A stretch of 64,000 nt of DNA from Bacteroidota bacterium (GCA_016195025.1 JACQAL010000036.1:145411-209410), one strand, 5' to 3'. Positions 19,811-62,686 are shown, numbered from the stretch's first letter. Numbers and translations: made by a program. The notes: generated by a model not told the origin, from the letters alone.

Positions 19811-19828
19811 TGTTTCTGCTAAAAATTT

Positions 19829-19836
19829 CAAATGTA
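19829..19836 (-). promoter_or_regulatory. TACATTTG -7 box of porU
   Basis: The plus-strand CAAATGTA reads TACATTTG towards porU, 18 bases before the ATG at 19810. It overlaps the TTG-initiated extension and so argues against that longer start. No -33 TTTG at 19-21 bases. Confidence 0.5.
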
Positions 19837-40636: not shown

Positions 40637-41500
40637 CTACGGCTCATCCGACAAGAGAACCTTCCATGCTTCTTCCACCTTTCCTTCGTCAAGTAATTTT
40701 TTGGCAAGCGAATGAATTTCTTTTTCGGAAGAAATATGTTGAAGATGTTCCTTTTTATACGCAAGCACTTCTTCTTTCGCAGGAAGTTTATCTGCATTTC
40801 CCAACTGCCCGAGATTATTTCCTGTAAGCACGGTGCTGTTGCGGATTTTTTCAGGTATCGAATCCACTCCTATTCCATGCTGAACAGATGGCTTTGTCAC
40901 TTCAAACAAGGCATGCGCTGCGCGCACATACCAGTTGCCGCCCGCTCTTCCCACCAAATCAATTTTATGCTGGTCAATGAAATTTTTTTCATTCAGAATT
41001 GTTTCGCTCACGTGCAGGAGAACAATTTCGCATACCACTAAATTTCCCGCTCCCGGATTTTTTCCCAGTTCAATCACTTCTTTCACGGTGCACTCCATTT
41101 GCACGGGCGATTCTTTCACGCGGGGCGGTTTCACTTTTTCCGAAGGCAGCATGGTAAATCCTGATTTTACAAATTCATTCACGCCTTTGGGATATTCCGT
41201 GCTGGAAAGAGATGCCTGATGCACCATGTCATACGTTACCACATTCACCACCGCTTCGGGAACTTCGAGCACATTGTCGTGCGTGTGCTTCGTTACGTTG
41301 GTTCTTCCGCTGCGCGCAGGAGAAAAAACCAAAATGGGCGGATTGGAACTGAAAGCATTGAAAAAACTGAACGGGCTGAGATTTACATTTCCGTTTTTAT
41401 CTATGGTGCTGACAAACGCCACCGGGCGCGGAGCAATGGCGTGAACCAAATAGCCCTGCAAGGCGGCAACAGAAAGTTGGTTGGGGTTGAGCGTGAGCAT
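40637..41500 (-). CDS. Flavin reductase family protein
   Basis: The 287-residue cytosolic protein has an FMN-binding split barrel (about 15-210) of the flavin-reductase type: HAIAPRPVAFVSTIDKNGNVNLSPFSFF near residues 21-48 and PARSGRTNVTKHTHDN. A helical C-terminal extension of about 70 residues follows (LAYKKEHLQHISSEKEIHSLAKKLL). It may supply reduced flavin to a monooxygenase, but none is adjacent. It appears monocistronic. A TATTTTCG-like box with one mismatch lies upstream at about 41534-41541. Confidence 0.88.
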   Translation of the reverse strand: MLTLNPNQLSVAALQGYLVHAIAPRPVAFVSTIDKNGNVNLSPFSFFNAFSSNPPILVFSPARSGRTNVTKHTHDNVLEVPEAVVNVVTYDMVHQASLSSTEYPKGVNEFVKSGFTMLPSEKVKPPRVKESPVQMECTVKEVIELGKNPGAGNLVVCEIVLLHVSETILNEKNFIDQHKIDLVGRAGGNWYVRAAHALFEVTKPSVQHGIGVDSIPEKIRNSTVLTGNNLGQLGNADKLPAKEEVLAYKKEHLQHISSEKEIHSLAKKLLDEGKVEEAWKVLLSDEP

Positions 41501-41981: not shown

Positions 41982-42163
41982 CATAGTACGCTATAGCGAA
42001 TTTATAGTAAACTATAGCGAATTTATAGTAAACTATAGCGAATTTATAGTAAACTATGGCGAATTTATAGTAAACTATAGCGAATTTATAGTAAACTATA
42101 GCGAGTTTATAGTAAACTATAGCGAATTTATAGTAAACTATAGCGAGTATATAGTTTACTATA
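41982..42163. repeat. 21-bp tandem dyad array (nine units, last one inverted)
   Basis: Units start at 41982, 42003, 42024, 42045, 42066, 42087, 42108, 42129 and 42150, exactly 21 bases apart. Each is TATAG-TAAA-CTATA (5-bp arms, 4-base centre) plus a 7-base spacer GCGAATT. The first unit is degenerate (CATAG-TACG-CTATA). The last has the centre TTTA, which makes it the reverse complement of the others. It fills the 244-base gap between the DUF3078 remnant and the convergent ABC permease gene. No cas genes or unique spacers are present. Confidence 0.95.
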
Positions 42164-46287: not shown

Positions 46288-47379
46288 TTATAAACTCATG
46301 CGCAGTCCAATGGTATGCGTACCGTTAAACGGATTGGTGGCGCGGTATCCGTAATCCAATCCGAAGGTGGAGCCCTTTTCTTTATTAATGGGAAGTTCCA
46401 CCGTGAATCCCGCACTGAAGCCGGTGAAGGCAGTGGTGCGAATAGGCGGATCTGCTGTATTATCTTTATTCCTGATTCCTTTCTCAATAAGGTAGCCCGC
46501 GCGAAGCATCAGGAAAGATTTAAAACCATACTCCACGCCAACTTTCTCCTGGTCTTTTCCAAAGGAGTTTGAAGTGAAGGTTGCCGCCAATGTGATGCGG
46601 TGCATTTTGCTGGCGCTGTCGCCTCCCAGATAAAAATCATGCGCGCCTCCCATGTTTAACTGCGAAGGCATTTCATACGCATCGGAACGGCTTGAAACCA
46701 CATGGTCGAGCCCGCTTACAGTTCCGTTCACAGAAGTTTCGCGGAAAGAAAGCCCGTCACCGGAGAATCGCATTTTGGAGCCCACATTCTTCAGCGATAT
46801 TCCAAACTTGGTGCTGTTCATTTTTCCGGTCACATACTGAATGCCGGCATCGAGCGCTGCGCCTGCGGCTTTGGCGTTGGGAATGGCTTCCTGCAATACT
46901 TTTAAATTCATTCCGCCAAAAATATGGTCGGTAAATGCTCTTGCGTAAGATGTATTAATGTTGATGATAGAGATTTTAAAATTACCCAATCCTCCTTCGG
47001 GAAGGTCATAGGTGGTAACGGGAATGTCACCGAAATTCATGGACATGATGCCCACTCCCAGCACACCCGAAGTGCCCACGTGCTGTGAAAACCCGAAGGC
47101 ATTTAAACCGATTCCGCTTCCGGATAAATAATTGGTGTGCGCGAAAAGCAATTCGGTTTTTTTGGTGAAAGCGGTTCCCGCAACATTCAGGAATTGCGCT
47201 TCCAGTCCGTGTGCGCCCGCCATGTTGGCATCTGCCCATCCCGAATTTCTTGCCCATGGATTGATGAGCAATTCGGAGGCGCCTGCCTGTCCGGCTCTGT
47301 CGGGGTTTCCTGCGAAACTGTATCCGCTGAAAAATACTCCGGCAAAAATTGCTGTCAGAAGTTTTGTAGTGTGCTTCAT
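46288..47379 (-). CDS. PorV/PorQ-like outer-membrane protein
   Basis: The 363-residue exported barrel (signal peptide 1-23, ending SFAGN) is of the PorV/PorQ family. Its opening ASELLINPWARNSGWADANMAGAHGLEAQFLNVAG replaces the TPDSRAGAMGD region, and the strand pattern ends in IGLRMSL. It is the third gene of a T9SS cargo cluster and may be a dedicated shuttle for its cargo, by analogy with PorV. Distinct from the porV at 14648-15856. It lies 27 bases after the cupredoxin gene in the same direction. Confidence 0.82.
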   Translation of the reverse strand: MKHTTKLLTAIFAGVFFSGYSFAGNPDRAGQAGASELLINPWARNSGWADANMAGAHGLEAQFLNVAGTAFTKKTELLFAHTNYLSGSGIGLNAFGFSQHVGTSGVLGVGIMSMNFGDIPVTTYDLPEGGLGNFKISIININTSYARAFTDHIFGGMNLKVLQEAIPNAKAAGAALDAGIQYVTGKMNSTKFGISLKNVGSKMRFSGDGLSFRETSVNGTVSGLDHVVSSRSDAYEMPSQLNMGGAHDFYLGGDSASKMHRITLAATFTSNSFGKDQEKVGVEYGFKSFLMLRAGYLIEKGIRNKDNTADPPIRTTAFTGFSAGFTVELPINKEKGSTFGLDYGYRATNPFNGTHTIGLRMSL

Positions 47380-47406
47380 ATTTATTTTCTTTATTACGAT
47401 TCTTTT

Positions 47407-48969
47407 TTATTTGTTAAGAATAATTTTCTTTACGCTCTTGTTGTTTTCCGACCTTACTTCGAGCAAATAAATTCCTGCGGGATAATTGCTGAGATTGAAA
47501 GTGAATTTTGCAGGAACCGAAACAGTTTCTTTTGTCTGGGAAATTGTTTCGCCCATGATATTGTAAAGTTTCAGGGTTACGTTGCCTAAGTCATACGCAT
47601 TAATGTGAACGAAAATATTGTCGGTGGTCGGATTCGGATAAACGGAAACCATGTCTTCCTGAATAATTTCTTCTACTCCTGTTCCGCCCGCAATATCCAC
47701 ATCATCAATGTAGAGATTGTTCTCATAATTACTGATGTTTACAAACCTCACCATTAACTGCGGTTTATTGGTTGGCAGCATAACCGTGTCCTCCATCCAT
47801 TCATTTCCAAATGGCTCAAACGGAACCGTGCTGAATGCTTTAGCGGCAGTAACCAGTTTATTTGAACCGGATGCTCCGTACTTTTTATAAACCTGCGTCC
47901 ATGTTGCGCCTGTATCGGCAGACCATTCAATCACCAGCGTATCTGATTTGGCATTGGGACTGCTGGGGTCGGTATAAAGTTGATATGCTCTCCAGAATGT
48001 CAGCATGGGAGCATTGCACAGCATGGGTGTGATGAGATAATCTTTTGAGCCGATGGTAGTGTCGGAAAAATTATTCATGTAAATGGCACCTGCACCGAGA
48101 TGAGGATTTTTAATAGTATTAGTAATAGCCCATGATATATCATTGTCAGGGTTGCTGGTGTTCCAGCCAAAAGGAAAATTTGCCGGGTCGTTAAATCCTT
48201 CCATCAGCGGATTCAGCCCGTTGATGGTAACGTTTATGGTATCGAAAGTCACACAACTCATCGTATCGGTAACTTTTACTGAATACATTCCGGAAGATAA
48301 CACTGTAATCTTCTGGGTAACTTCTGTAGTTGACCATGCATATTTATATCCTTTGCCTGCACCGCCTGCATCAAGCGTAACTGCTCCGCAGGTTGTAACA
48401 TCGGGTCCGAGATTAACAACAGGAGGATTGGGATTAATGGTAACAGTAACACTTGCCGTACTGTTTCCGCAGGAGTTATAGGCAACTACCCAAAAACTTC
48501 CGGAAGCATTTACAACAAGTGTCTGCGTGGTTGCGCCTGTGGACCAAACATAGGTAGCGCCCATATTGCCTGCATCGAGCGTAACGCTTCCTCCGCATTG
48601 AACAACATCTCCTATGCTCACCATCGGTGGCGCATTCACATAGAAAATTCCCGTCATTCCCATTCCCACATGATAATCGCATTGATAGGTAAACGTATCA
48701 ACCGATGCAGGAATAAATTCAAATTTATCTCCGGGAGTAGTCATATCAGGTGAAACAACATTAACAGGATATGTAATATGCACGTTGTGCGTGTTTGCCG
48801 CACCAGCGTCATAAACAAAACGAATGGTATCGCCCAAACATAAACTCAATGAGTTTGGCATAAACAGATTGTCCTTCACCCAAACTGTATCGGCAGTTGC
48901 ATGGGCGCGCAAAGAGAAAGACAAAGAAAACGCGGTGATGAGCGACAGGATTGTTAAAACTTTTTTCAT
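47407..48969 (-). CDS. T9SS-secreted cupredoxin protein
   Basis: The 520-residue product has a signal peptide (1-25). An N-terminal plastocyanin-like domain (about 28-115) carries a type 1 copper site: the first His lies in THNVHITYP, and Cys, His and Met lie in YQCDYHVGMGM. Two Ig/PKD-like repeats follow (115-250), then a jelly-roll domain (about 260-430). The T9SS C-terminal domain (about 440-520) shows VSVYPNPTTDNIFVH and YPAGIYLLEV. So an electron-transfer or copper-binding protein is predicted at the cell surface. It lies 40 bases after the 1632-residue cargo gene, probably in the same transcript. Confidence 0.9.
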   Translation of the reverse strand: MKKVLTILSLITAFSLSFSLRAHATADTVWVKDNLFMPNSLSLCLGDTIRFVYDAGAANTHNVHITYPVNVVSPDMTTPGDKFEFIPASVDTFTYQCDYHVGMGMTGIFYVNAPPMVSIGDVVQCGGSVTLDAGNMGATYVWSTGATTQTLVVNASGSFWVVAYNSCGNSTASVTVTINPNPPVVNLGPDVTTCGAVTLDAGGAGKGYKYAWSTTEVTQKITVLSSGMYSVKVTDTMSCVTFDTINVTINGLNPLMEGFNDPANFPFGWNTSNPDNDISWAITNTIKNPHLGAGAIYMNNFSDTTIGSKDYLITPMLCNAPMLTFWRAYQLYTDPSSPNAKSDTLVIEWSADTGATWTQVYKKYGASGSNKLVTAAKAFSTVPFEPFGNEWMEDTVMLPTNKPQLMVRFVNISNYENNLYIDDVDIAGGTGVEEIIQEDMVSVYPNPTTDNIFVHINAYDLGNVTLKLYNIMGETISQTKETVSVPAKFTFNLSNYPAGIYLLEVRSENNKSVKKIILNK

Positions 48970-49009
48970 AGTATAAAATTATTTTTTTATTGCTGCTGTC
49001 ATTTTTATA

Positions 49010-52000
49010 TTAGAATGAACCAACGTCTAAGGGTCTCATGATACCAAACCATTTCAGTATTTTTTCTCCCACGCCCGGCACTTCAATATGAATAATGTAA
49101 ACCCCGCTCGAGATAGGTGTGCCTGCATTGTTTTTCAAATCCCAGTATCGCGAGCCGTCCCACGTAGAGAGCGCATTGCTTTTTACTTCCGAATCAAATG
49201 CCGGATGCGGATCATACGCTTCTCCTTTTTTGATTCTCCGTATCAGCGTTCCGCCAAGATTATAAATGGAAATGGTGCATTGCTCGGGAAGATTCGTTAT
49301 AAGAATTTTTGTTTCCACTCCTTTTGTTTCATAGCCGGAATAGGCATAATACGGATTGGGAACCACGTTGATTAAATCAAGCGCGCTCACAGCCGAATCG
49401 TTCAGGTTGGTATGCGTGGCAATGCCATCGGTGCTGAATGTGTACATGGGCAAATTCCTGTTCTGCCCAAAGGCGGTGGATGCCGTATCGGCAATTATAT
49501 TTTTAGTGCCTACGACTGTAAGGGCGGGCGAGTAGCCGATTTTATATGATTTAGCCACTCTCAGCCGCACGGTAACATCCGATTCAAGCAAACTATGCCC
49601 GGAATTCAGCAGTGGAATATTCACCCACATGGCATCGCGGTAAATATCCTTCAACTGCGGATTAGCAGGTTGCCCATTATTCAATCCCATAGTAGTTCTT
49701 ATTTGTTTACACCCATCGTACCGGGGAACAGTAATGGTTTGAACAGATGAAACATCTCTGTTATGTCCGAAAATATATATGTAATGGTATCCTCCAAACA
49801 AAGCCGGGTCTGTTCCGGATGCTTGTTTTCCCATTGCCCAGGGAGCAGAACCATATTTGGTTGAAGTGGGATTCCAAGTCATGTCGGCTCCGTTCTGGTT
49901 AAAGTCATACGCAGAGAATGAGATAACACTGGCAACCGCACCGCTTGTGCCACCGGTTATAACTTCCCCATTAGAAAATGTTCCCGTTACATTGGTAAGA
50001 ATGGCAATGGATGCCGTGTTGTCGGAATTATTCTGAATAAGAATGTCTCCTTTTGCTAACGAAGTTGCCCCGGTAACAGTTTCCCCGTTTAAAAGCATAG
50101 GCGCATCCTTTGCATCCTGGAATGTGGGCGCTGTAAAAGAAGTAACTGTTGCTTTGGCGCCTGATTTTGCCCCTACAATTACATCTCCGGCAGAAATAAT
50201 TCCACTGATAGAATCAATAGTCAAGGTTGCTCCGGCATTCACCACCCTCGCAGTGCCGCCATTGGTATATGCAGTTATAGATTCAGAGTTCATAAATGTT
50301 CCTTTCAACCCAGCATAAGTAATAGTTCCTCTTAAATTATAGGTGAGCACTTTCCGGCTTGATACTTTTGAAAGCGCGGAGTTTTCCCCGAAAGCAATGT
50401 TAAGGCGCTCGCCTGTTTCCACATTGATGGCATAGCCGGGAAACCATCCCATGCCGGTTGGAAAATCGTAACTTGTATCGGTGTTTCCGTTTTTATCTAC
50501 CGAAAACGCCTTGCGGTAATCTAATTTCCTGGCGCGGTATTTTTCAGTCGGAGCGGTGCTTACAGAATAATTGCTGTCTTCGCACATTTCAAGCACAACG
50601 CAGCGCGACCATTTGCTCTTATCGCTTGTCAATACAACATCCACACTTGATAGGTCGCTTAGTTTGACCGTACCCATATAGTTTATTTTGGGAGAAAACA
50701 TAGTGCCTCCATAATAAGAAGACCAATCAAAATGATCGCTTGGAGTTGCCGGTATAGCGGCATTATCCGTGCGGGCAGTTAACCTGTAAGGCGCCCATGT
50801 TCCATCCACAACTCCCGCATATATTTCATTATCATCTAAGCCAACATAATCGTCCTGCCACGGATCCACTTTTGAAGGGTTTGTAATATGTGTTCCTGAC
50901 CTAATCCAGTTTGCGTATGATAACGCATTAATATCAGCAACACCTGTCAGCCAGTTTTTAGTTTCATCGGCAAAAGTCATGGAAGAACTCAGGTAGCCAT
51001 TGTTTACAGAAGCTGCCGAGCCGGGCTCGCCTGCCTGCAAAACAGCAACAGAGATTCCGTATTGCGGAACAATATTTTCATATACGCGCTCAACGGTCTG
51101 GTCAGACCAAACAGTATCGCCCGTAGTGTTGTTAATCAAAATCCAGTTTGACTTGCCGATGCTGCCTCCGGCAGGAGCGGAAAGATAATTCTGAATCTTT
51201 GCGCTGTCGGTGGGGGTGGGGTTCGGGAAAGGTCCCGGTCCGTAAATCACTTCTCCCAACCTGAACGAACCGCTCACGGCAGTCACGCGCAGGCGCGATG
51301 AATTGGCAAACGCAATGGTGCCGGTAGCGCCCGAGGTTCTTCCTTTTATCTTTTCTCCCACCTTGAATGTTCCTCCGAGCATCTGGTAGTCAATCCTTGC
51401 CGTGGAATCAAACTTAAGCGTGAAATTAGTGGCATCGGGCACATTGAGCGGGTCAACCACTTTTACATTGATGGGACCATATCCTGCAACGTACTCAAGT
51501 GATTTTGCGCGGTTATCGGATGCGCTGAGAATGGAACTGGTGGTAGCAGATGTCAGTTCAAGATATTGGCCTCCGTTTCCGTTTCCTTCCACGCGCGTAA
51601 TACCCGGCTGCGAACCGTATGCTGCACTCATGGAAGTTCCTCCTGAATAAGGAGCCGGATTATGAGGAATGCCTGAATAGGAGTGCAGGTTTCTGCGCCC
51701 TTGCTTATAAGGTTTTTTCTGTCCGTCAAATGTGGCGGTGATGGTTGAATTTGCAACGCCATTGGTAAAATTACTGCATTTGTTTTGACTTAAATCCGGA
51801 GTCGCATCCTGCTTATAGGGTTTAAACTGGTTATAGCCATATGCCACCGCCATGTAATAATAGGTATGATGATTCACGATTGTTGGGTCACCGAGCGCGA
51901 ACAAATCTTTGGTAACCACCAAGGAATGAAATACGCCTTTATCATCTCCCGTTACCTGCACGGAAGGAACAATTGCATTCAGTTGGGCATTGAAAACATA

Positions 52001-53908
52001 ATTGGTAATAGTGGACACTCCGTTTTTAACATCGCACTGCGCAAGCATGCGCGCCTTGTCGGGATTATCCAAATCGCTGGCAGAAACAGTATTGTCTTTC
52101 AACTGGAAAATCTTATATCCTTCAAAATCATACGTGGTGTCTATGCAATGAAGCGGTTTGCCGCTTGCATCGAGCAGCGCAATGGTAGCATCGTACTCGG
52201 AATAATTTTCATTGTAGTTGTTGGAGGTGGGCTTATTGGTCAGGTAAAGAATTAATTTTTTATCCAACTCCTGAATGGTAATATCGGGAGCATCGGGACC
52301 ATTGAGCACCTGGAAACAATTGTCAAAAAGTTTTTGCGCTTTGTCGTCTGCGGCTTTCATGAGGCATACCGAATTGATATTGTCAGAGCCCCGCGCCCAT
52401 ACTACACCGGCTGTTACCACATTCACAGCGCCCGGCTGCAATTTGAAGGGACCGGCAGATTCGAGCAACCTGCGGTCGCCCGGAGTATTGTTAACAGATG
52501 CTTCGCTCCAGTAAGGGAGCGTTTGGCTTGTAGAACAATTACCTCCGGTTCCCCAGTCATGGGTGTCACTGGTCTTTTGTGTACAAGGGTCACCGGGAAA
52601 TGAGTATGCGCATAGTGGTCCTCCGCTTAAGTATCCTTGTCCTCCATAGGTAAAAGGAGTTCCATCCTGCCAGGAACCGCTCATGTAATTATAATATTCC
52701 TTTGCGCCTGAAGGGTCTCTCTGCGGATAGCCGGCTCCGTTTGTAAAATGTACAAAGTGCGCCATGATTGCCTGTTCGCATATTTCATCCACCACGCAGT
52801 TGTGGTTGTTGTCTTTTCCGTCACCGGGAGTAGCAATAGGTCCCCGGAAGAAATCTATTCCGAGGGCAGGAGGCGCAATTCCATAACCCAATTCACCGGA
52901 GCAGGCAACATCGTTGTTTGTTCCATTATATACATAGCCAAGTCCTCTTTCAACATCGCAGCCCACCCAGTCATCGGTGGCGCATCCAAGGTCGGGGTCG
53001 CACCATATTGCAATGAACGTGCTGTCTAATGTTAAACTGGAGCGGTTGTAAATGCGGTAACTCAGAAAGGTCATGTTGTTAATTTCATCATCGGTGGAAA
53101 AAGCGAATGCCTGGCAATGAACTTCCAGCCCCATGGGCAGTCCTTTGGTTTCGCTGTGAATATTTCCTTTATCATTTATTACCCAGAACAAACATTCATC
53201 GCCACTGATATGGTCTTTTGGCACGCAGTTGACTTCGCTGCAGGTTCCATCGCCAAAATCAGGATAGTCGCCATCGGCAGAATTATATTTTCCATCTCCG
53301 TTTTTATCTACAAAGGGCGCTATGGTTGGCGCCTGACCCAAGGCAGCATTGCCGTTGCCGGGCCAGTTTTGTATGGCGGTGGTAGCGGCTCCTCCTCCGA
53401 TAAAGGCGGTAACTTCCGCCTGTGTAATTTTATAATGATGGTCCCATGCATTGCATTGGTCTGCTGAAATAAGAGCGGAGCCATCGGTTGTTAGCGGCCC
53501 GGGCCACCAGTCGTTTCCGGCATCGCGGTATTCTTGTCCGGCAAGGTGAAGGTTGTTTCCATTATCATACCCGCCAATCCATAAAGCGCCCGCGTAAATC
53601 GGCATAATGCCCGAGCCCTTCGGCACTTCATAAATTCCGTGCGTTTGCTGTGAATAATCCCACCACATGTCACCGCCCGTAAGATAATGCGCGCGCACAT
53701 TATTAATGTCCAAATCGGCTTGTGCCGCTCCGGGCGTACATCCGCTGAGAACAGTGGGAGGAGCGGCATTCGGCTTGCCTCCACCCTGCGAACCGGAGTT
53801 AACTGATTTGAGAGCAAAACTGCTGGGAACTGAAAACAGGCAGCAGGCAAGCATGCACGCTGCAAGAAGGGATGATTTGTTTCCAACGTTGTGTTTGGCT
53901 TTTTTCAT
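49010..53908 (-). CDS. Very large exported T9SS-type cargo (1632 residues)
   Basis: A signal peptide (1-33) precedes a large surface region rich in Asp, Gly and Trp (WWDYSQQTHGIYEVPKGSG near residues 80-98). The C-terminus (about 1530-1632) is a T9SS/FlgD-like domain: NVVPNPYYAYSGYE, TISIYNLGG, GVYIIHIEVPG. Degenerate repeats of the form GxFxxGExIxGxTSGAxAxV occur at least six times, at about 51225-51390 and 49915-50310. No enzymatic motif is recognised. No promoter is seen in the 449 bases upstream, so it is probably read from the TonB receptor gene through the array at 54017-54205. Confidence 0.85.
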   Translation of the reverse strand: MKKAKHNVGNKSSLLAACMLACCLFSVPSSFALKSVNSGSQGGGKPNAAPPTVLSGCTPGAAQADLDINNVRAHYLTGGDMWWDYSQQTHGIYEVPKGSGIMPIYAGALWIGGYDNGNNLHLAGQEYRDAGNDWWPGPLTTDGSALISADQCNAWDHHYKITQAEVTAFIGGGAATTAIQNWPGNGNAALGQAPTIAPFVDKNGDGKYNSADGDYPDFGDGTCSEVNCVPKDHISGDECLFWVINDKGNIHSETKGLPMGLEVHCQAFAFSTDDEINNMTFLSYRIYNRSSLTLDSTFIAIWCDPDLGCATDDWVGCDVERGLGYVYNGTNNDVACSGELGYGIAPPALGIDFFRGPIATPGDGKDNNHNCVVDEICEQAIMAHFVHFTNGAGYPQRDPSGAKEYYNYMSGSWQDGTPFTYGGQGYLSGGPLCAYSFPGDPCTQKTSDTHDWGTGGNCSTSQTLPYWSEASVNNTPGDRRLLESAGPFKLQPGAVNVVTAGVVWARGSDNINSVCLMKAADDKAQKLFDNCFQVLNGPDAPDITIQELDKKLILYLTNKPTSNNYNENYSEYDATIALLDASGKPLHCIDTTYDFEGYKIFQLKDNTVSASDLDNPDKARMLAQCDVKNGVSTITNYVFNAQLNAIVPSVQVTGDDKGVFHSLVVTKDLFALGDPTIVNHHTYYYMAVAYGYNQFKPYKQDATPDLSQNKCSNFTNGVANSTITATFDGQKKPYKQGRRNLHSYSGIPHNPAPYSGGTSMSAAYGSQPGITRVEGNGNGGQYLELTSATTSSILSASDNRAKSLEYVAGYGPINVKVVDPLNVPDATNFTLKFDSTARIDYQMLGGTFKVGEKIKGRTSGATGTIAFANSSRLRVTAVSGSFRLGEVIYGPGPFPNPTPTDSAKIQNYLSAPAGGSIGKSNWILINNTTGDTVWSDQTVERVYENIVPQYGISVAVLQAGEPGSAASVNNGYLSSSMTFADETKNWLTGVADINALSYANWIRSGTHITNPSKVDPWQDDYVGLDDNEIYAGVVDGTWAPYRLTARTDNAAIPATPSDHFDWSSYYGGTMFSPKINYMGTVKLSDLSSVDVVLTSDKSKWSRCVVLEMCEDSNYSVSTAPTEKYRARKLDYRKAFSVDKNGNTDTSYDFPTGMGWFPGYAINVETGERLNIAFGENSALSKVSSRKVLTYNLRGTITYAGLKGTFMNSESITAYTNGGTARVVNAGATLTIDSISGIISAGDVIVGAKSGAKATVTSFTAPTFQDAKDAPMLLNGETVTGATSLAKGDILIQNNSDNTASIAILTNVTGTFSNGEVITGGTSGAVASVISFSAYDFNQNGADMTWNPTSTKYGSAPWAMGKQASGTDPALFGGYHYIYIFGHNRDVSSVQTITVPRYDGCKQIRTTMGLNNGQPANPQLKDIYRDAMWVNIPLLNSGHSLLESDVTVRLRVAKSYKIGYSPALTVVGTKNIIADTASTAFGQNRNLPMYTFSTDGIATHTNLNDSAVSALDLINVVPNPYYAYSGYETKGVETKILITNLPEQCTISIYNLGGTLIRRIKKGEAYDPHPAFDSEVKSNALSTWDGSRYWDLKNNAGTPISSGVYIIHIEVPGVGEKILKWFGIMRPLDVGSF

Positions 53909-54357
53909 AGTACCTTGTATTAGTATATTAATTGCTTTATGCGTTTTCTATTAGATTTATTTTATACTGTTGAATTATTGTGAATTTTAGAATACTTTAC
54001 AAGTTCCACCGCACGCGTAGAGTGTTCTACCGCACGCGTAGAGTGTTCTACCGCATGCGTAGAGTGTTCTACCGCACGGGTAGAGTGTTCTACCGCACGG
54101 GTGGAGTATTCCACCGGACGGGTGGAGTGTTCCACCGGAGCAGCAGAGTATTCCACCGGAGCAGCAGAGTATTCCACCGGAGCAGCAGAGTATTCCACCG
54201 GTGGAGTGGAACAGCATGCGCGGCAAGCGTTGTTAATGCCGGTTACCATTTTATATGCTGCTTTCATTGTTTGCATTGCTGGTTTCGCAGTTATAGTTTC
54301 TATCGGTTTGGTTTCTTCTTCTATGAGTACTGATAATGTTCATGTCCATTAAATTCA
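53909..54357. other. 449-base intergenic region with a 21-bp array
   Basis: Between the cargo start (53908) and the TonB receptor stop (54358). It holds the array at 54017-54205 and no TAnnTTTG box facing the cargo. Because the 21-mer lacks stops, several frames are open on both strands. One plus-strand frame ends in a 38-codon hydrophobic segment (54236-54352), for which I see no promoter or ribosome site. Confidence 0.7.
54017..54205. repeat. 21-bp tandem dyad array (nine units) with arm covariation
   Basis: Units start at 54017 and then every 21 bases to 54185. Each has a 5-bp arm, 4-base centre, 5-bp arm and 7-base spacer. Units 1-4 are GTAGA-GTGT-TCTAC, units 5-6 GTGGA-GTRT-TCCAC. Both arms change together, so pairing is kept. 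Units 7-9 are GCAGA-GTAT-TCCAC, where two pairs are lost. Spacers drift from CGCACGC to CGGAGCA. A degenerate unit precedes it, and the perfect palindrome TCCACCGGTGGA closes it. It sits inside a leftward run of cargo genes. Confidence 0.95.
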
Positions 54358-57300
54358 TTAAAAATTAAACACTACGCCTATCCTGATTCTTCGCGGTATG
54401 CTGTAATTGGAAGGATTCGGCAATTTGGCGCGGTATAAATCAACAAAGGAGGTCGGGCTGGCATATCCCTGAATCACCCCCTGATTGCCGGGATAAGAAA
54501 GATAGCCGTCATCCGCAGGGTCGCCAGTATGGCGATACACGTTCAGGATATTTTTAGTGTTGAACAGGTTTAAGATTTGCACATACGCGGTCAAACTATA
54601 GCGGCTTGCTTTATCTTCGGAACTTTTTGTTTTAAGGGCAATATTTTTATCAAGGCGAAGGTCCACCCTGTATTGCCAGGGCATGTTGGAACCATTGATA
54701 TCTCCTCCAAGGTTGCTCGGCTGGTTAAGCCCTAAAAGAACCTGTGTTCCATTGTTGCCGTTTCCGCTCACTACATTTGAGAGGCGGCTGTATGGCAGCC
54801 CGCTTCCCATGCGGAAAATAAGATTACCGCCAAAGTTTTCAAATACGGCTTTTGCCCATGCTGCCTGAGGTCCGCGGTAATCCTTTCCTCCGCCAAAACG
54901 GTAATCATAATTTAACACGATGGCATGGCGCTGGTCGAAATCGGCAGGATAAACGGAGCGAAGGTTGGGCTGACCTGCCGCAATTACACCGGAAGCAGAA
55001 GAAGCGGCAGAGCCGGTGGCTTCGGCAAACTGCAGCGTATAACTTGCGGTTAACTGCGAACTCGCAGTCCTGCGCAAATCATATTTCACGGTGAATCCTT
55101 TTACGTTTCCAAAATCAATATTATCGTAAGTAATATAACTTACGGGATAAGCATCCAGCACGTTCCTCTGCTGAAGCATGTTTTTCATCTGGCGGTAATA
55201 GGCGGAAAGGGTAAGGGCTGAATTTTTCCGCTCGCTTAATGTTTGCGTAAATCCTAATTCATAATCAATGGTCTTCTCCGGCTTCAGCGCAGGATTTCCA
55301 ATGGTGCTGAAGTAGCCGCTTTGAATAAACAAATAGTCAGTGGGAGAAAATTGTCCGTTGGCAGGCGGGCGCTGTGTCAGCATATCATAATGCGCAAAAA
55401 ACTGGGCGCGGTCTGAAATAGGAAATGCAAACGCAATGCGGGGCATAAGGTTAACCTGCGTTTTATACATCTTGAATACTTTATCTGTTGACGAAGAATC
55501 TAAAAATTTCTCGCCCGGATATTTCAGGTAGGGCTGAATGGAGCCGCTGGTGGTTTGATGCGCAATCAAAGTAGGGTCGGTTACCAGCACGCCATTGGCA
55601 TCGTACCAGGTATCGCCATTGCGGTAGCCCACTACTTTGCTGGGGTTCTTCACATCATCTACATACACCACGTAATCGGAACCCATGTTGGAAGGATGCT
55701 TGAATTTGCTGTCCTCGCTTACCGTGTATGCTTCGTACAGGAGATATTTATCCTGCAGCATCGGCTGGTTGGCATTGAATGCATCCATACGCAAGCCGAT
55801 ATTGAATTTCATATCCTTGATATCAAATTTATCCTGGATATATCCCGATACATAGACGGGCTGAAAAGCGGGAATGGTACGGATATGGTTTCCATCGGAA
55901 GTGGTATCCTTATAAAAGGACTTTAATGCATCTAAGTTGAATTGCTTGTTGGATAATTTTTTATTGTCGTAAGAATATCCGTAATAACTGATGTATGAAT
56001 TTCCGTTGTTCAGCAATTCATCGGGAGAGAACATGCTGATGTTTAACTGGGTTGGGTCGAGCATATCAATATCCACCCATTCGTTATCCTGTTTTCCCAA
56101 ACTCTGCCTTACATTTTTTCCAAAAGTGCTTTCAGCAGAAGAATTGTTTACATACGGATGGTCATAATAAGGAATGCCGTTTGCATCTACATGATTCAAT
56201 GTTTTGACAAAGGTGTCTAACTGGGTAAGATGCTTGTTCATTAACTGGCGGCCCAGCGTCCACAATCCGGTAGGGTTAACGTACCATGCGCGGTCTACTC
56301 TTTTTTCGTAATCAAATCCCGCCTGTATAGCGTGGTTTTTTATATCGGTGGAAAAAGTTCCGGTAATGCGAAGTTGATTGCGCTGAAGGTTATGATAGCC
56401 GTTATACTGCCGGCCGGTGTTGTGCCAGAGCGAATACGGGCTTTGCGGACGGTCACCATTGCGCATACCGATGGGATATAAATCATCAATTGTTTTCGGA
56501 GCAGGCATGAGAGAATAATAATCGGTGGTGTAATTGGCAGCGAGCGGATTCAAATCGCCTGCTGTAAATTTCACAGCCGTATCCGCCCAGGTATTTTGAG
56601 AATAATATTTAACATTTCCTGCCGAGTCCTTTACCGCAGTGTAAACCGGTTTTCTGTCGGTTTCAAATTTTCCCACATATCCGTAATTGAAATAATTATT
56701 TTTATGCGCATCGCTTTGTTCTGTCTCATTGTATTTGCTGTAACCCACCTGCAGCGTATAGTAGGCATTCTGAAAGAGTGCGGTTGTTTTATCGTCTTTG
56801 GAATGCTGTTTTCCGAGGCGGTGAGTAATTTTTGCATACATCCTCATGTTATTGTAAATCACCTGCGGATTATGAGAAGGATTCAGAAGAGAATATTCAT
56901 AAACAAAATCATGGTAATTGCCATGGTCGAAAGAGCCGCCCAATGTTACGGTAAGGTTATCCATCGGCTTGTAATCAATTTTTCCGCCCAGTCGCACCGA
57001 GTTGCTTTTTACATTCTGCCTCGCCTTGATGTGCTCAAGGTCATCGCTGGTCAGATAATCGGCTGCGAGAATGGCACCGGTCGCATCCGGATTTGTTATT
57101 AACGGATGCTCTTCGAGTTGCTTGAGTTTATCATCTTTCACTTTATATACTCCGGCAGCAGTAGGGCTGGGGTCTTTTTCAGAATTTACTTCGCCCGAGA
57201 AAAAGAATCCGAGTTTCGGGTGAACCTGCCCGGTGCTGTCTTTCTTTGCTCCGATGGGACCGCCCACATCAAAGTTGACATAGTTTTCTCCGAACTTATC

Positions 57301-58071
57301 GGTGAGTTGGGAAGTTTTCATTTCCACACCGCCATAATATTCAGGGCGGATTCCACCGCGGGTGGTAATGTTGATAATGCCTCCTGTTGCATCTCCGTAT
57401 TGCGCGGGAATTCCACCCGTGATTACGGAAATCTGTTCAATGTCTGATTCGGGAAGCCCTGCGGTTCCGCGCGCGGGAACTCCGTCAATATAATAACGTG
57501 TTGCCCCTCCATCAGGATTTATATTATTGGGTTTGCCGCCATCATCCTGCCTGCTTCCCCTGAGAGAAAGCGCAGCGCCTTCATCTGACTGAAATACTCC
57601 TGCGGTGGTGGATGCAACTGAATTCACATTGTGCGTAGGCATGGCTTCAAACTGCTCGCGCGTTACCGTGCCGCCTTGCTTTGTGTCGGGGTCAATAAGA
57701 GGAACGGTATATTCCACCACTTCAAAAGTTTTTATTTCCTGCATGGTGGTTTTCACTTTCAAATCCTGGTAAGTGGTTTTGTCGGCACCGACAATAACAC
57801 CGGAAATTTGTAAAGGAGCATAGCCAACGGCTACCGCTTTCAGATTATATTTCCCCGGAGGAATTGGTTTGATGGTGAAGTTGCCGTCAATGTCGGCAAC
57901 GGTTTTTGCCACTGCGTTTCCGGCTTGCTCCAACTGCACATTGGCGAAAGAAATTCCTTCTCCGTTTGTTTCGTCAATCACTTTTCCTTTCAGGGCTCCG
58001 GTTTGCGCGAAGGCGGCTGTTCCTGCGGTGAGTGCTGTAAGTAAGAAGACAGCGTAGATTTTTTTAATCAT
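54358..58071 (-). CDS. TonB-dependent receptor with N-terminal carboxypeptidase-regulatory domain
   Basis: Outer-membrane active transporter of 1237 residues: signal peptide (1-22), carboxypeptidase-D regulatory-like domain (27-112; GALKGKVIDETNGEGISFANV), plug (about 130-260; TGGIPAQYGDATGGIINITTRGG) and a 22-strand-type barrel ending PRRIRIGVVFNF. No SusD partner follows, so the substrate cannot be guessed. Downstream are T9SS cargo genes and a PorV/PorQ relative. A TTTG-N21-TACATTTG promoter (58236-58268) gives a leader of about 160 bases containing a TTGCG-TTCG-CGCAA hairpin (58109-58122). Confidence 0.95.
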   Translation of the reverse strand: MIKKIYAVFLLTALTAGTAAFAQTGALKGKVIDETNGEGISFANVQLEQAGNAVAKTVADIDGNFTIKPIPPGKYNLKAVAVGYAPLQISGVIVGADKTTYQDLKVKTTMQEIKTFEVVEYTVPLIDPDTKQGGTVTREQFEAMPTHNVNSVASTTAGVFQSDEGAALSLRGSRQDDGGKPNNINPDGGATRYYIDGVPARGTAGLPESDIEQISVITGGIPAQYGDATGGIINITTRGGIRPEYYGGVEMKTSQLTDKFGENYVNFDVGGPIGAKKDSTGQVHPKLGFFFSGEVNSEKDPSPTAAGVYKVKDDKLKQLEEHPLITNPDATGAILAADYLTSDDLEHIKARQNVKSNSVRLGGKIDYKPMDNLTVTLGGSFDHGNYHDFVYEYSLLNPSHNPQVIYNNMRMYAKITHRLGKQHSKDDKTTALFQNAYYTLQVGYSKYNETEQSDAHKNNYFNYGYVGKFETDRKPVYTAVKDSAGNVKYYSQNTWADTAVKFTAGDLNPLAANYTTDYYSLMPAPKTIDDLYPIGMRNGDRPQSPYSLWHNTGRQYNGYHNLQRNQLRITGTFSTDIKNHAIQAGFDYEKRVDRAWYVNPTGLWTLGRQLMNKHLTQLDTFVKTLNHVDANGIPYYDHPYVNNSSAESTFGKNVRQSLGKQDNEWVDIDMLDPTQLNISMFSPDELLNNGNSYISYYGYSYDNKKLSNKQFNLDALKSFYKDTTSDGNHIRTIPAFQPVYVSGYIQDKFDIKDMKFNIGLRMDAFNANQPMLQDKYLLYEAYTVSEDSKFKHPSNMGSDYVVYVDDVKNPSKVVGYRNGDTWYDANGVLVTDPTLIAHQTTSGSIQPYLKYPGEKFLDSSSTDKVFKMYKTQVNLMPRIAFAFPISDRAQFFAHYDMLTQRPPANGQFSPTDYLFIQSGYFSTIGNPALKPEKTIDYELGFTQTLSERKNSALTLSAYYRQMKNMLQQRNVLDAYPVSYITYDNIDFGNVKGFTVKYDLRRTASSQLTASYTLQFAEATGSAASSASGVIAAGQPNLRSVYPADFDQRHAIVLNYDYRFGGGKDYRGPQAAWAKAVFENFGGNLIFRMGSGLPYSRLSNVVSGNGNNGTQVLLGLNQPSNLGGDINGSNMPWQYRVDLRLDKNIALKTKSSEDKASRYSLTAYVQILNLFNTKNILNVYRHTGDPADDGYLSYPGNQGVIQGYASPTSFVDLYRAKLPNPSNYSIPRRIRIGVVFNF

Positions 58072-58235
58072 ATTCTGAATATTTAATTTTTAATGTCGGA
58101 AAATAAATTTGCGCGAACGCAATTTTTCTTTTTGCAAATGAATGCTGTATGTAAAGCGATTCGCAGTCAATTCTAAAATCATTTTTTCTTTCTCCGGGAA
58201 ATCGGGATTGAGAAAGAATATTTTTAAAGAGCGGG

Positions 58236-58268
58236 CAAATGTATAAAAATATAAATGTCATCACCAAA
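58236..58268 (-). promoter_or_regulatory. Promoter of the TonB receptor gene
   Basis: On the minus strand, TTTG (58265-58268), 21 bases, TACATTTG (58236-58243). Transcription would start about 58229, about 158 bases before the ATG at 58071. Confidence 0.65.
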
Positions 58269-58360
58269 TTTTTTTTCGTTGTGTTTTTCAGAACAAGAGA
58301 GCAAATTTTTTCTTACAGGACAAATGTACGGCATCAACCTGATGTTTGTTGCGGCAAATT

Positions 58361-58395
58361 AGTAAGTGGTAGGAAAAATTTAGTAACTGGTAAGT
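58361..58395. repeat. Direct repeat with 21-bp period after the LytTR gene
   Basis: AGTAAGT, GGTAGGA, AAAATTT, AGTAACT and GGTAAGT are in 7-bp register, so AGTAAGTGGTA and AGTAACTGGTA repeat 21 bases apart, one base from the LytTR stop. LytTR sites also repeat near 21 bases, but these copies match that consensus poorly. Confidence 0.6.
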
Positions 58396-58396
58396 T

Positions 58397-59140
58397 TTAT
58401 TTCAGCCGCTGGAGCAAATCATCTCTTTTCCTGCGTGAAACTTCTACTTTGCTTCCATCGCTCATTTCGGCATAGCCGCCATCTTCTTTCATAAAACGAA
58501 CCATGTGAGCCATATTAATAAGATTGGAATGATGCACGCGCACAAAATCTTTTTCCGGCAAAAGGTCTTCATACTGTTTCAACGTTCCGGATACGAGCAG
58601 TTTTTTCCCGTTGGAAAGAAATACATTCGTATAGTTATCATTCGCTTCGCAACGGATAATATCTTTTATGGATACAATTTCATACGCATGTCCGCTGGGA
58701 AATGTGATTTTACTGAACTGGTCTTCTTTTTGTTTTACATTTTCAAGAAGCGAACGGAGATTTTCTTCGTTAGAAAATTTTTGATTTCGTCCAGCTATTT
58801 TTCCCACCGCAATTTTTAATTCTTCCGCATCAATCGGCTTCAGCAAATAATCAAGCGCGCTGTATTTGATTGCCTTGATGGCAAATTTTTCATGAGCCGT
58901 TGTGAAAATGACTTCGAACTTTAAATCGGAAAGTTTTTCCAAAACATCAAATCCGCTTCCATCGCCCAGCATTACATCGAGAAAAATTAAATCGGGTTTT
59001 GTTTTGTAGAAAAGATCATATCCTTCTTTCACGCTTCCGGCTTTGCCGAGAAGAGAAACTTCCGGACAATTTCTTTTCAATAATTCTTCAAGTGCGCTTG
59101 CACTTTTTTTCTCGTCTTCGATTATGATTGCATTAATCAT
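58397..59140 (-). CDS. LytTR-family response regulator
   Basis: Receiver domain (1-120) with phosphoacceptor Asp55 (LIFLDVMLG) and acidic pocket IIEDEKK, then a LytTR DNA-binding domain (about 145-247; EANDNYTNVFLSNGKKLLVSGTL and FVRVHHSNLINMAHM). 247 residues, standard. Transcribed 26 bases after the propeller histidine kinase, its expected partner. The TonB receptor gene follows after 325 bases and is a plausible target by position. Confidence 0.95.
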   Translation of the reverse strand: MINAIIIEDEKKSASALEELLKRNCPEVSLLGKAGSVKEGYDLFYKTKPDLIFLDVMLGDGSGFDVLEKLSDLKFEVIFTTAHEKFAIKAIKYSALDYLLKPIDAEELKIAVGKIAGRNQKFSNEENLRSLLENVKQKEDQFSKITFPSGHAYEIVSIKDIIRCEANDNYTNVFLSNGKKLLVSGTLKQYEDLLPEKDFVRVHHSNLINMAHMVRFMKEDGGYAEMSDGSKVEVSRRKRDDLLQRLK

Positions 59141-59166
59141 TATTATTACGAAAATACAAATTGGGT

Positions 59167-62151
59167 TTACACCGGAATATATATTTCCACTTTTGTTCCG
59201 AGCGCATTTCCGTTTTCCTGCAAATCAAAAATATTTACGCTGAGATTCGAGTGATGAATGCGGTTCAGCACTTCCAGCCGTTCGTTTGTAATTTTCATTC
59301 CCATGGATTCGTGCAGCGGGCTGGATTTGGATTTTATTTCTTCCGACTTCTTCCTTCCGATTCCGTTGTCAGTAATCATACATATAATATAGGTATCGTT
59401 TTGCGAAATGCTGATTTCAATTTTTCCATTGCCATTTTCCTTTGGAACAACTCCATGAATGATTGCGTTCTCCACGTAGGGTTGAATGAGCATAGATGGA
59501 ATTTTATGAAAATCCATTTCAACTGCCGAATTAATTTTTATTTCGTAATCAAATTTATTTCCCCAACGCAATGATTCCAGTTCCAGATATAATTTCAGCG
59601 AATCAATTTCTTCGCGAAGCGTGACGGAAGATTTTTCGCTGTTGGAAAGAATCATGCGCATGAGTTTGGCAAACTTGTTCAAATATTTCAGCGCGGAATC
59701 CTCATCCTTTGTCATAATAAAACTTTGAATCGAACTCAGCGAATTAAAAATAAAATGCGGGTCCATCTGCGCGCGCAATGCTTTGAGTTCATTGGTTGCC
59801 AGTTGAATTTCGCGCGAAAGTTTTTCGGTTTCTTTTCTTCTGATTGCATCGGCTCGAAGGCGGAATAAAATCAGAAGCAAAATAATTCCTGCCACGGTTG
59901 AGCTTGCGACAAACCACCACCTTTTCCAGATGGGTGGAAGAATTACAAAAGAAAATGTTGCTGGATTTTTATTCCATAAATTTTCATTGTTGCATGAAAT
60001 AACTTTGAACGAATATTTTCCCGGAGAAAGATTTGCATAGCGCGCGAAAGTTTCTTTTGTTTCGGGCGACCATGTTTTATCATAGCCATTGAGCATGTAT
60101 TTATAGCGGACTTTTTCCGGATTGGTCAAACAAATTCCGACATACTCAAAAGAAATATTGTTGAGATAATACGGAAGTTTGGAATTGTTTGCGAGCAGCG
60201 TATCGTTATAAAAGATGCGGATGTTTTTTATGCTCGTCTGCGATTCGATGTGATTGCGATGAAGCGCGTAGGGATTAAAATGAATGAGCCCGTTCACCGT
60301 GCCGAACCAAAGCGTGCCGTCTTCATCGCGCCAGATTCCGTTTGAGTTTGTTTCCAAACTGCTCACGCCTTCTTCCTGCCCGAACTGCTCGAGCAAAATT
60401 TTTCCGGTGCGTTTCCATTCTTTCACATTTAATTTATTTACGCCCTGGTTTGTTCCGATGTAAAGATTTTCATAGGAGGAATCAAACTTCATCACGTAAA
60501 TCAAATCGGAACTCAAACCATCTTTCTCGCTGACCTGAGAAATTTTTTCTGAAGAAGAATTATAAATATAAATTCCATCGAAACTTCCGAGAAAAATATT
60601 TCCATCCCTGTCTTCTTCAATGGCGAGATAGGTTTTGCTTTTCAGGTTTAATTTCTCAGAAATATTTTCAAAATCTTTCCCATTGTAGCGGAACAATCCA
60701 CCGAGGTAAGTTCCGAACCAGATATTTTTTTTGCTGTCTTCAAATTCAAACCACACATTAAAATTTTGTCCGTCCGAAGTTTTCAAATCAAACTTTTTAA
60801 AATTTCTCCCGTCCCAGATTGCGCCTCCGCGATTTCCGCCCAGCCAACTATTTCCCTTCGAATCCTGAAGCAAAGAAGTAACCGAATCGCCTTTCAATCC
60901 CTCCAATTTTCCGCGAATGTTTTTGAAAGCACTTCCATTGTAAATAGAAACTCCTTTGTTCGTTCCCATCCAGATATTTCCATTCTTGTCTTCCATGCCC
61001 GCGCACATGAAAGTTCCGATGAGCCCGTCTTTCTCTGAAAAATTTTTGAACTCTTTTCCATCGTAGCGGTAAAATCCTTCTTCGTAGGTTCCCACCCAGA
61101 GATTTTTTTTACGGTCGCGGAAAATCGGAAAGATGAACGGATTTTTCAAACCGTGCTTGTCGGAAAAAGTGGAGAATGCCGGATCGCGGAAACGATACAA
61201 GCCATTGGAAGTTCCGAGCCAGAGATTTCCCTCATCATCCACAAAAAGTTTGCTCACTTTATTTCCATTCTGCACATCGCTCACATGAAACGACTGCACT
61301 TTTCCATCTTCAGAAATTTTATTCAGCCCTTTCAAAGTTCCCACCCAAATATTATTTGAATGTTCATCTTTCCTTACCGCCTGAATTGCTTTATCCAACA
61401 AACCATCTTTCGCAGTGAATGTTTTGAACTTTATTCCATCGTATTTTACAACGCCAGCATTTGTTCCGAACCACATATTTCCATTTTCATCTTCGGTGAT
61501 GGAGGTAACGGTTGAATCATAAACGCTGTTGATGATGGAATAATTGTCGAACGATTTATCCTGCGGGTTTTTATTGGTGAAAACAATTTTGCTCACACCG
61601 CTATCGGAATTCAACCAGAGATTTCCATTCTTATCCGCATAGATTAACGAAATATTATTCGAACTCAAACCATTTTTTATTGTGAGCGAAGAAAAATTTC
61701 TACCATTATATATAGTGATTCCATTGGTTGTGGCAATCCAGAGATTTCCGTTTTTATCTGAGGTGAGCGAGTTAATATAATCTCCGGACAATCCGTTTTT
61801 CGAAGTGAAGGTTGAAAAATTCTTCCCGTCAAACTTACTTAGCCCGCTGATAGTTCCAATCCAGATATTTCCCTGCGAATCTTCCGCAATGCTCGTCACC
61901 AAGTGATTCGCCAAACCGTTTTTCGGAGAATAGTTGGTGAAATTTTTTCCATCGAACTTGCTGAGTCCTCCGTAGCCACCCGTCCATAAATTTCCTTTGC
62001 TGTCCTGAAAAATGCAATACACCTGCACATAAGGCAACCCTTGCTCGGCAGAATAATTTTTGAAGTTGTAGGATTGGGAAAAACAATGTACATTGTACAT
62101 TGTACATTGTACAATGAAAAAAGAAAACAAAAACTTTTTCTTAAAAAACAT
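59167..62151 (-). CDS. Propeller-type sensor histidine kinase (LytS-like core)
   Basis: The 994-residue sensor has a signal peptide (1-26) whose hydrophobic end is encoded by TACATTG repeats (62089-62116). A long two-component-regulator propeller (about 30-640, many GNLWIGT blades) is followed by a Y_Y_Y domain (about 655-735) and one membrane helix (about 742-762). The cytosolic kinase has His799 in MDPHFIFNSLSS and an HATPase with DNGIGRK. The propeller is extracytoplasmic, in the manner of hybrid polysaccharide sensors, but the kinase and regulator are separate here. The LytTR gene follows 26 bases on. Confidence 0.94.
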   Translation of the reverse strand: MFFKKKFLFSFFIVQCTMYNVHCFSQSYNFKNYSAEQGLPYVQVYCIFQDSKGNLWTGGYGGLSKFDGKNFTNYSPKNGLANHLVTSIAEDSQGNIWIGTISGLSKFDGKNFSTFTSKNGLSGDYINSLTSDKNGNLWIATTNGITIYNGRNFSSLTIKNGLSSNNISLIYADKNGNLWLNSDSGVSKIVFTNKNPQDKSFDNYSIINSVYDSTVTSITEDENGNMWFGTNAGVVKYDGIKFKTFTAKDGLLDKAIQAVRKDEHSNNIWVGTLKGLNKISEDGKVQSFHVSDVQNGNKVSKLFVDDEGNLWLGTSNGLYRFRDPAFSTFSDKHGLKNPFIFPIFRDRKKNLWVGTYEEGFYRYDGKEFKNFSEKDGLIGTFMCAGMEDKNGNIWMGTNKGVSIYNGSAFKNIRGKLEGLKGDSVTSLLQDSKGNSWLGGNRGGAIWDGRNFKKFDLKTSDGQNFNVWFEFEDSKKNIWFGTYLGGLFRYNGKDFENISEKLNLKSKTYLAIEEDRDGNIFLGSFDGIYIYNSSSEKISQVSEKDGLSSDLIYVMKFDSSYENLYIGTNQGVNKLNVKEWKRTGKILLEQFGQEEGVSSLETNSNGIWRDEDGTLWFGTVNGLIHFNPYALHRNHIESQTSIKNIRIFYNDTLLANNSKLPYYLNNISFEYVGICLTNPEKVRYKYMLNGYDKTWSPETKETFARYANLSPGKYSFKVISCNNENLWNKNPATFSFVILPPIWKRWWFVASSTVAGIILLLILFRLRADAIRRKETEKLSREIQLATNELKALRAQMDPHFIFNSLSSIQSFIMTKDEDSALKYLNKFAKLMRMILSNSEKSSVTLREEIDSLKLYLELESLRWGNKFDYEIKINSAVEMDFHKIPSMLIQPYVENAIIHGVVPKENGNGKIEISISQNDTYIICMITDNGIGRKKSEEIKSKSSPLHESMGMKITNERLEVLNRIHHSNLSVNIFDLQENGNALGTKVEIYIPV
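62089..62116. repeat. Four 7-bp words (TACATTG) in the kinase signal peptide
   Basis: TACATTG, TACATTG, TACATTG and TACAATG run in register. Translated on the minus strand as part of IVQCTMYNVHC in the signal peptide. Confidence 0.9.
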
Positions 62152-62179: not shown

Positions 62180-62686
62180 TTAATATTGAGGGCGTTTCAG
62201 AATTTCGGAATAAATTATTGCTTTGCGAATATCAAAATCTGATTCCTGTTCTTCTGTTGGAACGGATTCTTCAGTAAAAGGTTTTTTAGAAATTTCCTTT
62301 TCGCTTGCTAAAAAAGGTTTTGGCATTTCTTTTATTTTGGAAGGAGGATGTGATGGAGTTGCTTTAACTTTTTTTGCGTGCGTAACAATTTTTGCCGGCT
62401 GCGGTTTTATTTTGATTGGCTCAGGTTTTAGATCCCGATAGCTATCGGGATGCCTCTCGGGAATTTTTGGCTCAGGAACTTTTCCTAAAACTTCTTCGAG
62501 CATTTTTTTAAAATCATCTCCGGGCTGAGGAAGCGGTGAAGAAGTTGGCGGCTTAACTGTGGAAGACGGTTCGGGTTTTTTCTCCGCAGGTTTTTGCTGA
62601 GTTGCTTTTTTAGCCGCCTTGATGATACTATATATAATGTATAGTATTGCAAAGACAATGTATATGTAATTTGTGGCTGCGTGCAT
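62180..62686 (-). CDS. Small single-helix membrane protein with Pro/Lys-rich tail
   Basis: I do not recognise the family. The 168-residue product has one N-terminal membrane helix (about 6-24, YIYIVFAILYIIYSII) and a long charged, Pro-rich cytosolic segment (about 30-140). A 20-base perfect palindrome (62432-62451) is in frame, encoding RHPDSYRD, around residues 80-85. The product ends EILKRPQY. It lies 28 bases upstream of the propeller kinase in the same direction and may be co-transcribed. Confidence 0.6.
   Translation of the reverse strand: MHAATNYIYIVFAILYIIYSIIKAAKKATQQKPAEKKPEPSSTVKPPTSSPLPQPGDDFKKMLEEVLGKVPEPKIPERHPDSYRDLKPEPIKIKPQPAKIVTHAKKVKATPSHPPSKIKEMPKPFLASEKEISKKPFTEESVPTEEQESDFDIRKAIIYSEILKRPQY
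62432..62451. repeat. 20-base perfect palindrome ATCCCGATAGC/GCTATCGGGAT in a gene
   Basis: A perfect dyad inside the coding sequence at 62180-62686, shortly followed by a partial CTCGGGA copy. It looks like an intergenic-type palindrome carried into a Pro-rich linker. Confidence 0.85.

Follow-up and report, generated by a model that had tools for sequence, protein, structure and literature searches.

The 64,000-nt stretch of a Bacteroidota genome analysed here (GCA_016195025.1, JACQAL010000036.1:145411-209410; the whole stretch is referred to as the window) encodes a TonB-dependent receptor, a surface protein of 1,632 residues that is predicted to be exported by the type IX secretion system (T9SS), and an outer-membrane barrel of the PorV/PorQ family, three genes that stand next to each other in the same order across the phylum. 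We read them as an outer-membrane module in which the barrel, as a cognate carrier, would export and anchor the surface protein, which would then cap the receptor from outside like a lid; the probability that we attach to this reading is roughly 0.6. The three core genes and the C-terminal sorting domain of the surface protein, here called CTD-X, are located as follows:

54358-58071, minus strand: TonB-dependent receptor, core gene 1, with an N-terminal CarboxypepD_reg domain, a Plug domain and a TonB_dep_Rec barrel
49010-53908, minus strand: predicted T9SS-exported surface protein of 1,632 residues, core gene 2, without a Pfam or NCBIfam match
49013-49366, minus strand: CTD-X sorting domain, residues 1515-1632 of the surface protein, from VVPNPYY through the tail KWFGIMRPLDVGSF
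46288-47379, minus strand: PorV/PorQ-family outer-membrane barrel (NF033709), core gene 3, proposed cognate carrier and anchor

The receptor scores above the cut-offs of PF13620, PF13715, PF07715 and PF00593 and thus has both plug and barrel. By eye, the N-termini of all three proteins resemble Sec signal sequences, that of the surface protein being like an ordinary signal peptide.

All searches covered Bacteroidota, and the closest named relatives of the window genome are metagenome-assembled Bacteroidetes genomes. In a search of relatives, 36 of 40 genomes encoded a homolog of the surface protein, and 40 loci representing nearly all families of the class displayed a constant run of receptor, surface protein, PorV/Q-like barrel, GreA and HIT. 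At loci from other classes of the phylum GreA and HIT were gone, and receptor, surface protein and barrel were still together. In deduplicated locus counts, which depend on the loci fetched (the related loci were the best 80 matches, which favours the window's class), 142 of 161 unique loci had the receptor gene right before that of the surface protein, and 137 of the 161 CTD-X proteins were directly flanked by both partners in the same orientation, with the receptor upstream and the barrel downstream; the median gaps were 25.5 bp and 26 bp. Because this order recurs across the phylum, the arrangement is considered more than chance. The initial annotation had expected its genes to stay together in relatives, which holds for the three core genes and fails for a scattered cupredoxin gene that is described below. 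GreA, HIT and RuvC were ruled out as module members, being neighbours only within the class, absent at the other-class loci and separated from the module by a terminator in the window.

The three genes also duplicate as a whole. A double set of the module occurs in each of two genomes from another class (loci L166/L203 and L204/L205), and in both of them the closest relatives of receptor, surface protein, CTD-X and barrel match module to module between the genomes and not within a genome.

Co-occurrence was assessed in the same 296 Bacteroidota genomes throughout, with profile thresholds of E <= 3e-9 for a strong surface-protein match, E <= 1e-20 for the barrel and E <= 1e-50 for the receptor. 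The surface-protein profile matched 163 genomes, the barrel profile 145 and the receptor profile 84, and SprA was present in 228. Wherever the surface protein was matched strongly, the barrel was encoded as well (141/141 genomes), each of the 145 barrel genomes held at least a weak surface-protein match (weak in four), and every receptor genome held both other genes. The trio thus travels together in roughly half of the Bacteroidota genomes sampled, but since the genomes share ancestry, the Fisher value for this co-occurrence is not an independent probability. Within the window's class, the same eight genomes, including that of the window, hold all three genes, and the others in the class sample hold none at these thresholds. 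Weak surface-protein matches in 18 barrel-free genomes (E 3.9e-9 or worse) were taken as cross-matches. No sprA-negative genome was found among the 141 strong surface-protein or the 145 barrel genomes in this search of 296; the evidence that export of the surface protein may depend on SprA is this co-occurrence with sprA (141/141).

On profile comparison and structure prediction, the C-terminus of the surface protein is a distinct putative T9SS sorting domain, with the C-terminal domains that PorZ and PorU retain as its nearest counterparts. Members of the CTD-X family match the PorZ C-terminus in 75 of 75 cases, TIGR04183 in 72 and PorU in 55, weakly but uniformly, whereas among 43 type A controls the PorZ model was matched by one and TIGR04183, strongly, by all. 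The window protein scores 16.7 bits against TIGR04183 (cut-off, 23), so that it does not pass as type A (TIGR04183/PF18962), and its CTD-X has no Pfam match. Nor does it qualify as type B: the respective model TIGR04131 was matched by a single CTD-X member (1/75) at E 0.1, and the downstream gene belongs to the PorV/Q and not to the PorP/SprF family. The AlphaFold2 model of residues 1337-1632 has a mean pLDDT (predicted local distance difference test score) of 74.7, with the strands of the domain mostly at about 80-97, and predicts the Ig-like sandwich of type A domains. Its top Foldseek matches in the PDB are PorZ (5m11), PorU (6za2) and the CTD of RemZ in the T9SS translocon (8gl8_D); the CTDs of RemZ and NucA bound in SprA-PorV (8gl8_D, 8glk_D) are matched with a Foldseek probability of 1.00. 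A profile search of the PDB sequences with CTD-X likewise returned PorZ and PorU alone, at marginal E-values.

What sets CTD-X apart is its tail. In 146 of 154 proteins measured, the domain ends 13 residues past a conserved hydrophobic-Lys motif, and the final residue is mostly Phe or Tyr. The end lies 27-29 residues past a conserved G-x-Y, compared with 18-20 in type A signals, which makes CTD-X about eight residues longer. This fixed-length tail is missing from type A signals, and the tail motif was not found in the PorZ and PorU proteins of the window itself.

The barrel scores 130.9 bits against NF033709 (cut-off, 90) and hence belongs to the PorV/PorQ family, but with 45.9, 60.9 and 42.8 bits it remains far below the cut-offs of the PorV, PorQ and PorV2 equivalogs (250, 220 and 325, respectively). 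The best PDB match of the barrel-family profile is the PorV chain 6h3i_F (E 1.4e-16). True PorV, PorQ and PorV2 are encoded elsewhere in the window genome, and judged by these scores the module barrel is distinct from all three.

Taken as a working mechanism, the surface protein would be exported via the T9SS, as expected because its C-terminus is a predicted sorting domain. The neighbouring barrel, as cognate carrier, would pick it up at the SprA translocon and retain the uncleaved CTD-X, fixing the protein to the cell surface in the way that PorQ holds PorZ; the role of collector and holder is thus proposed by analogy. Once anchored, the protein would place its conserved N-terminal part on or beside the TonB-dependent receptor as an external capture or lid subunit, and the receptor would have a partner delivered by the T9SS in the position that a surface lipoprotein takes for SusC-type receptors. 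We infer that the barrel is specific for its neighbour and retains it, and that the three proteins form a physical complex that functions in import. The suggestion of the initial annotation that there is a dedicated surface assembly with its own T9SS carrier is supported by the contiguity in 137 of 161 loci, the near-perfect co-occurrence in 296 genomes and the T9SS-like fold of the C-terminus.

The body of the surface protein consists of a conserved N-region (about residues 48-836) and lineage-specific inserts at about 836-915 and 1181-1337, and no named family in Pfam or NCBIfam matches the protein end to end. The inserts carry GTF..GE.ITG.TSGA repeats, and weak phage-family matches (phrog_358, a head-closure family) fall on them. 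The N-region also occurs without CTD-X, in 17 proteins. Five of them are cut by contig ends, and none of the 12 intact ones has a receptor or barrel adjoining (12/12); the majority of the intact proteins terminate in recognisable type A-like domains. Two loci of other classes (L210 and L217) contain runs of proteins with the same N-region and type A-like C-termini, without receptor or barrel.

Evolutionary-rate covariation, computed after regressing out GreA and HIT, suggests contacts between N-region and receptor and between CTD-X and barrel and is used as supporting evidence only. The N-region covaries most with the receptor (0.73, versus 0.42 with the barrel), and noise-corrected values of 0.96 for CTD-X and barrel, 0.91 for receptor and barrel and 0.80 for N-region and receptor strengthen the uncorrected pattern. 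Several observations weigh against the proposed module. The covariation of CTD-X with the barrel (0.49 with maximum-likelihood distances) is equalled by that with the protein's own middle region (0.49) and barely exceeds that with the receptor (0.43; own N-region, 0.34), CTD-X is short (reliability, 0.40), and all these values are confounded by a species-tree signal that is imperfectly removed. Receptor and barrel are both missing next to at least 16 unique CTD-X proteins, and the pairing is therefore not strict; where other loci from the genome of such a protein were sampled, they mostly included a complete module. The model of the N-region is confident (pLDDT, 88.7), but its fold has no confident match and a profile search of the PDB was empty, so that the capture or lid role draws on gene order and analogy. 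SusD models did not match the surface protein, a result for this protein without a genome-wide SusD search. An enzymatic N-region was considered and set aside, since PDB fold matches to GH116 and related glycosidases reach a TM score of only about 0.2, and no enzyme claim is made.

Among the alternatives, the one that survives best, albeit as an unlikely one, is that these are co-regulated surface genes whose products form no physical complex, the barrel being a spare PorV for many cargos. The genome gives this idea some footing. At least 150 type A sorting domains are encoded in it, and together with the following T9SS genes of the window they indicate that the system is heavily used:

14648-15856: PorV
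15899-19831: PorU
20048-21007: PorP/SprF-family protein
21074-22654: GldJ
29398-31797: PorZ

All five are clustered in about 17 kb, at a distance of roughly 15-32 kb from the module. A general-purpose carrier is at odds with the absence of the barrel (E <= 1e-20) from 83 sprA-positive genomes, its tracking of this one surface protein, and the duplication of whole modules. In the same genome, PorU2 (1,722 residues) and PorV2 are encoded close together (L200, 2659-9519, on genome contig C16).

Marginally less probable is that the receptor itself exports or handles the surface protein, with the barrel as a downstream docking site. The precedent is Oar of Myxococcus, a CarboxypepD_reg-bearing transporter needed for secretion of the protease PopC (PMC6434023), whose domain architecture the receptor shares, and the strict adjacency of receptor and surface protein fits such a role. 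This architecture, however, dominates all Bacteroidetes TonB-dependent transporters (PMC6434023), and the surface protein has a T9SS domain and is never strongly matched in a genome that lacks sprA, so that a means of export is already at hand. The uptake of hydrophobic compounds, in which the barrel would be a channel of the FadL/TodX type next to the receptor and the surface protein would capture the substrate, is improbable: the barrel family matches TodX and TbuX weakly (E 0.001-0.01), far below the match to PorV (E 1.4e-16), and both the T9SS domain and the co-occurrence with sprA would be left unexplained.

The module is part of a longer run, 46288-62151, in which six open reading frames (ORFs) for named genes lie on the minus strand. 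The remaining features of this run are:

59167-62151, minus strand: two-component-propeller histidine kinase with seven Reg_prop repeats, Y_Y_Y and His_kinase domains, accessory
58397-59140, minus strand: LytTR response regulator, Response_reg and LytTR above cut-off, accessory
53962-54276, minus strand: ORF spanning a 21-bp tandem array in the gap between receptor and surface protein, not core
47407-48969, minus strand: cupredoxin-like protein with a type A T9SS domain (TIGR04183, 52.6 bits), lineage-specific insertion, not core
46258-46231, minus strand: terminator-like hairpin closing the run, an 11-bp stem with seven GC pairs, followed by TTTTTT

The hairpin is the strongest terminator-like site of the region and directly follows the last gene, that of the barrel, and the six co-directional genes ahead of a terminator were thus recovered with their domains as initially annotated. 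Their interpretation as one self-contained block was not upheld. The conserved core comprises three genes, and a unit of all six was ruled out by the patchy kinase and regulator and the rare cupredoxin gene.

The kinase/LytTR pair lies ahead of the receptor in 22 of the 142 receptor-flanked copies, six of these 22 loci belonging to other members of the window's genus, and in a comparison of equal spans on either side it was present upstream in 16 of 113 cases and downstream in 1 of 128. It is accordingly a recurrent but optional neighbour: the proposed two-component link is weakly supported, in that the pair recurs directly upstream and almost never downstream, but it is not general. The cupredoxin gene was detected in the window genome and in one other (G006), i.e., in two of seven genomes of the genus, and at no other examined locus. 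By eye, its domain has a His61, Cys97, His100 and Met103/105 pattern, and it scores 17.9 bits against Copper-bind, below the cut-off of 21.2. A copper or extracellular-electron-transfer assembly, which the initial annotation had suggested from a copper protein at the surface and for which this His/Cys/His/Met domain encoded between surface protein and barrel would speak, is rejected as very improbable, because the gene is lineage-specific, the second copy (that of G006) lacks the axial Met, and the Copper-bind score is below cut-off.

In the gap between receptor and surface protein, which at other loci is about 26 bp long, the tandem array (54003-54200) consists of 9.4 copies of a 21-bp unit, and the ORF across it reads VEYSAAP/VEHSTRA repeats; with up to two mismatches allowed, no other copy of the unit was found in the genome. 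A second 21-bp array with a different unit (8.6 copies) is located at 41983-42163. Upstream of the kinase, a small protein with a weak OadG-like N-terminus is encoded at 62180-62686; it may be a recurrent neighbour, because weak homologs directly adjoin the receptor on its upstream side in three loci (L050, L052 and L056). The ORFs 3127-4278 (383 residues) and 40637-41500 (287 residues) have no NCBIfam match.

The proposed module would have consequences beyond this genome. Encoded in roughly half of the Bacteroidota genomes sampled and in almost every relative of the window genome, CTD-X, as a domain class in its own right with a dedicated PorV/Q-family carrier, would widen the rules of the T9SS for carrier choice and surface retention and would link the system to TonB-dependent receptors. 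A protein of about 1,000-1,600 residues without a named family gains a probable location and partners. If the reading is true, it also describes a nutrient receptor of SusCD-like design that owes its outer half to the T9SS and not to lipoprotein export and that is old enough to span several Bacteroidota classes. In literature on relatives of PorV and PorQ and on TonB receptors with T9SS cargo, we found no description of the set of receptor, surface protein and barrel.

With respect to known systems, the proposed module would belong with the cognate carrier/signal pairs of the T9SS. Sorting domains of types A, B and C have been named in published work, and cognate carriers have been shown for type B. 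We tentatively put forward a further carrier/signal class, in which a clade of the PorV/Q family would export a single very large protein and hold it permanently at the surface, where it would cap a TonB-dependent receptor. The closest parallels are PorZ-PorQ and PorU-PorV of the T9SS attachment complex. PorZ and PorU are T9SS substrates reported to keep their domains, the CTD of PorZ being retained on PorQ and that of PorU bound to PorV (PMC10202324). The proposed likeness lies in a surface protein whose T9SS-type CTD stays in place and which a barrel of the PorV/PorQ family holds, and their domains are the nearest to CTD-X. However, the module protein matches neither the PorZ propeller nor the PorU protease, the barrel differs from PorV as well as from PorQ, the tail of CTD-X has a fixed length, and the module is encoded with a TonB-dependent receptor. 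In type B systems such as SprB-SprF and PG1035-PorP-PorE, cargo uses cognate carriers that are often encoded next door, and some cargos are orphans without an adjacent carrier (PMC12618676, PMC9143113). The carrier gene directly downstream of its cargo and the occurrence of orphans are shared with the module, which differs in a sorting domain that is not TIGR04131, a PorV/Q instead of a PorP/SprF carrier, and a receptor in place of PorE. SusCD likewise combines the genes of a TonB-dependent receptor and a surface protein, but the partner in the module has no SusD match and is an apparent T9SS substrate instead of a surface lipoprotein. Finally, PorU2-PorV2, a putative second sortase pair (NCBIfam), provides in the same genome another PorV/Q paralog near a specific large surface protein, with a different barrel type, an unrelated partner and no receptor.

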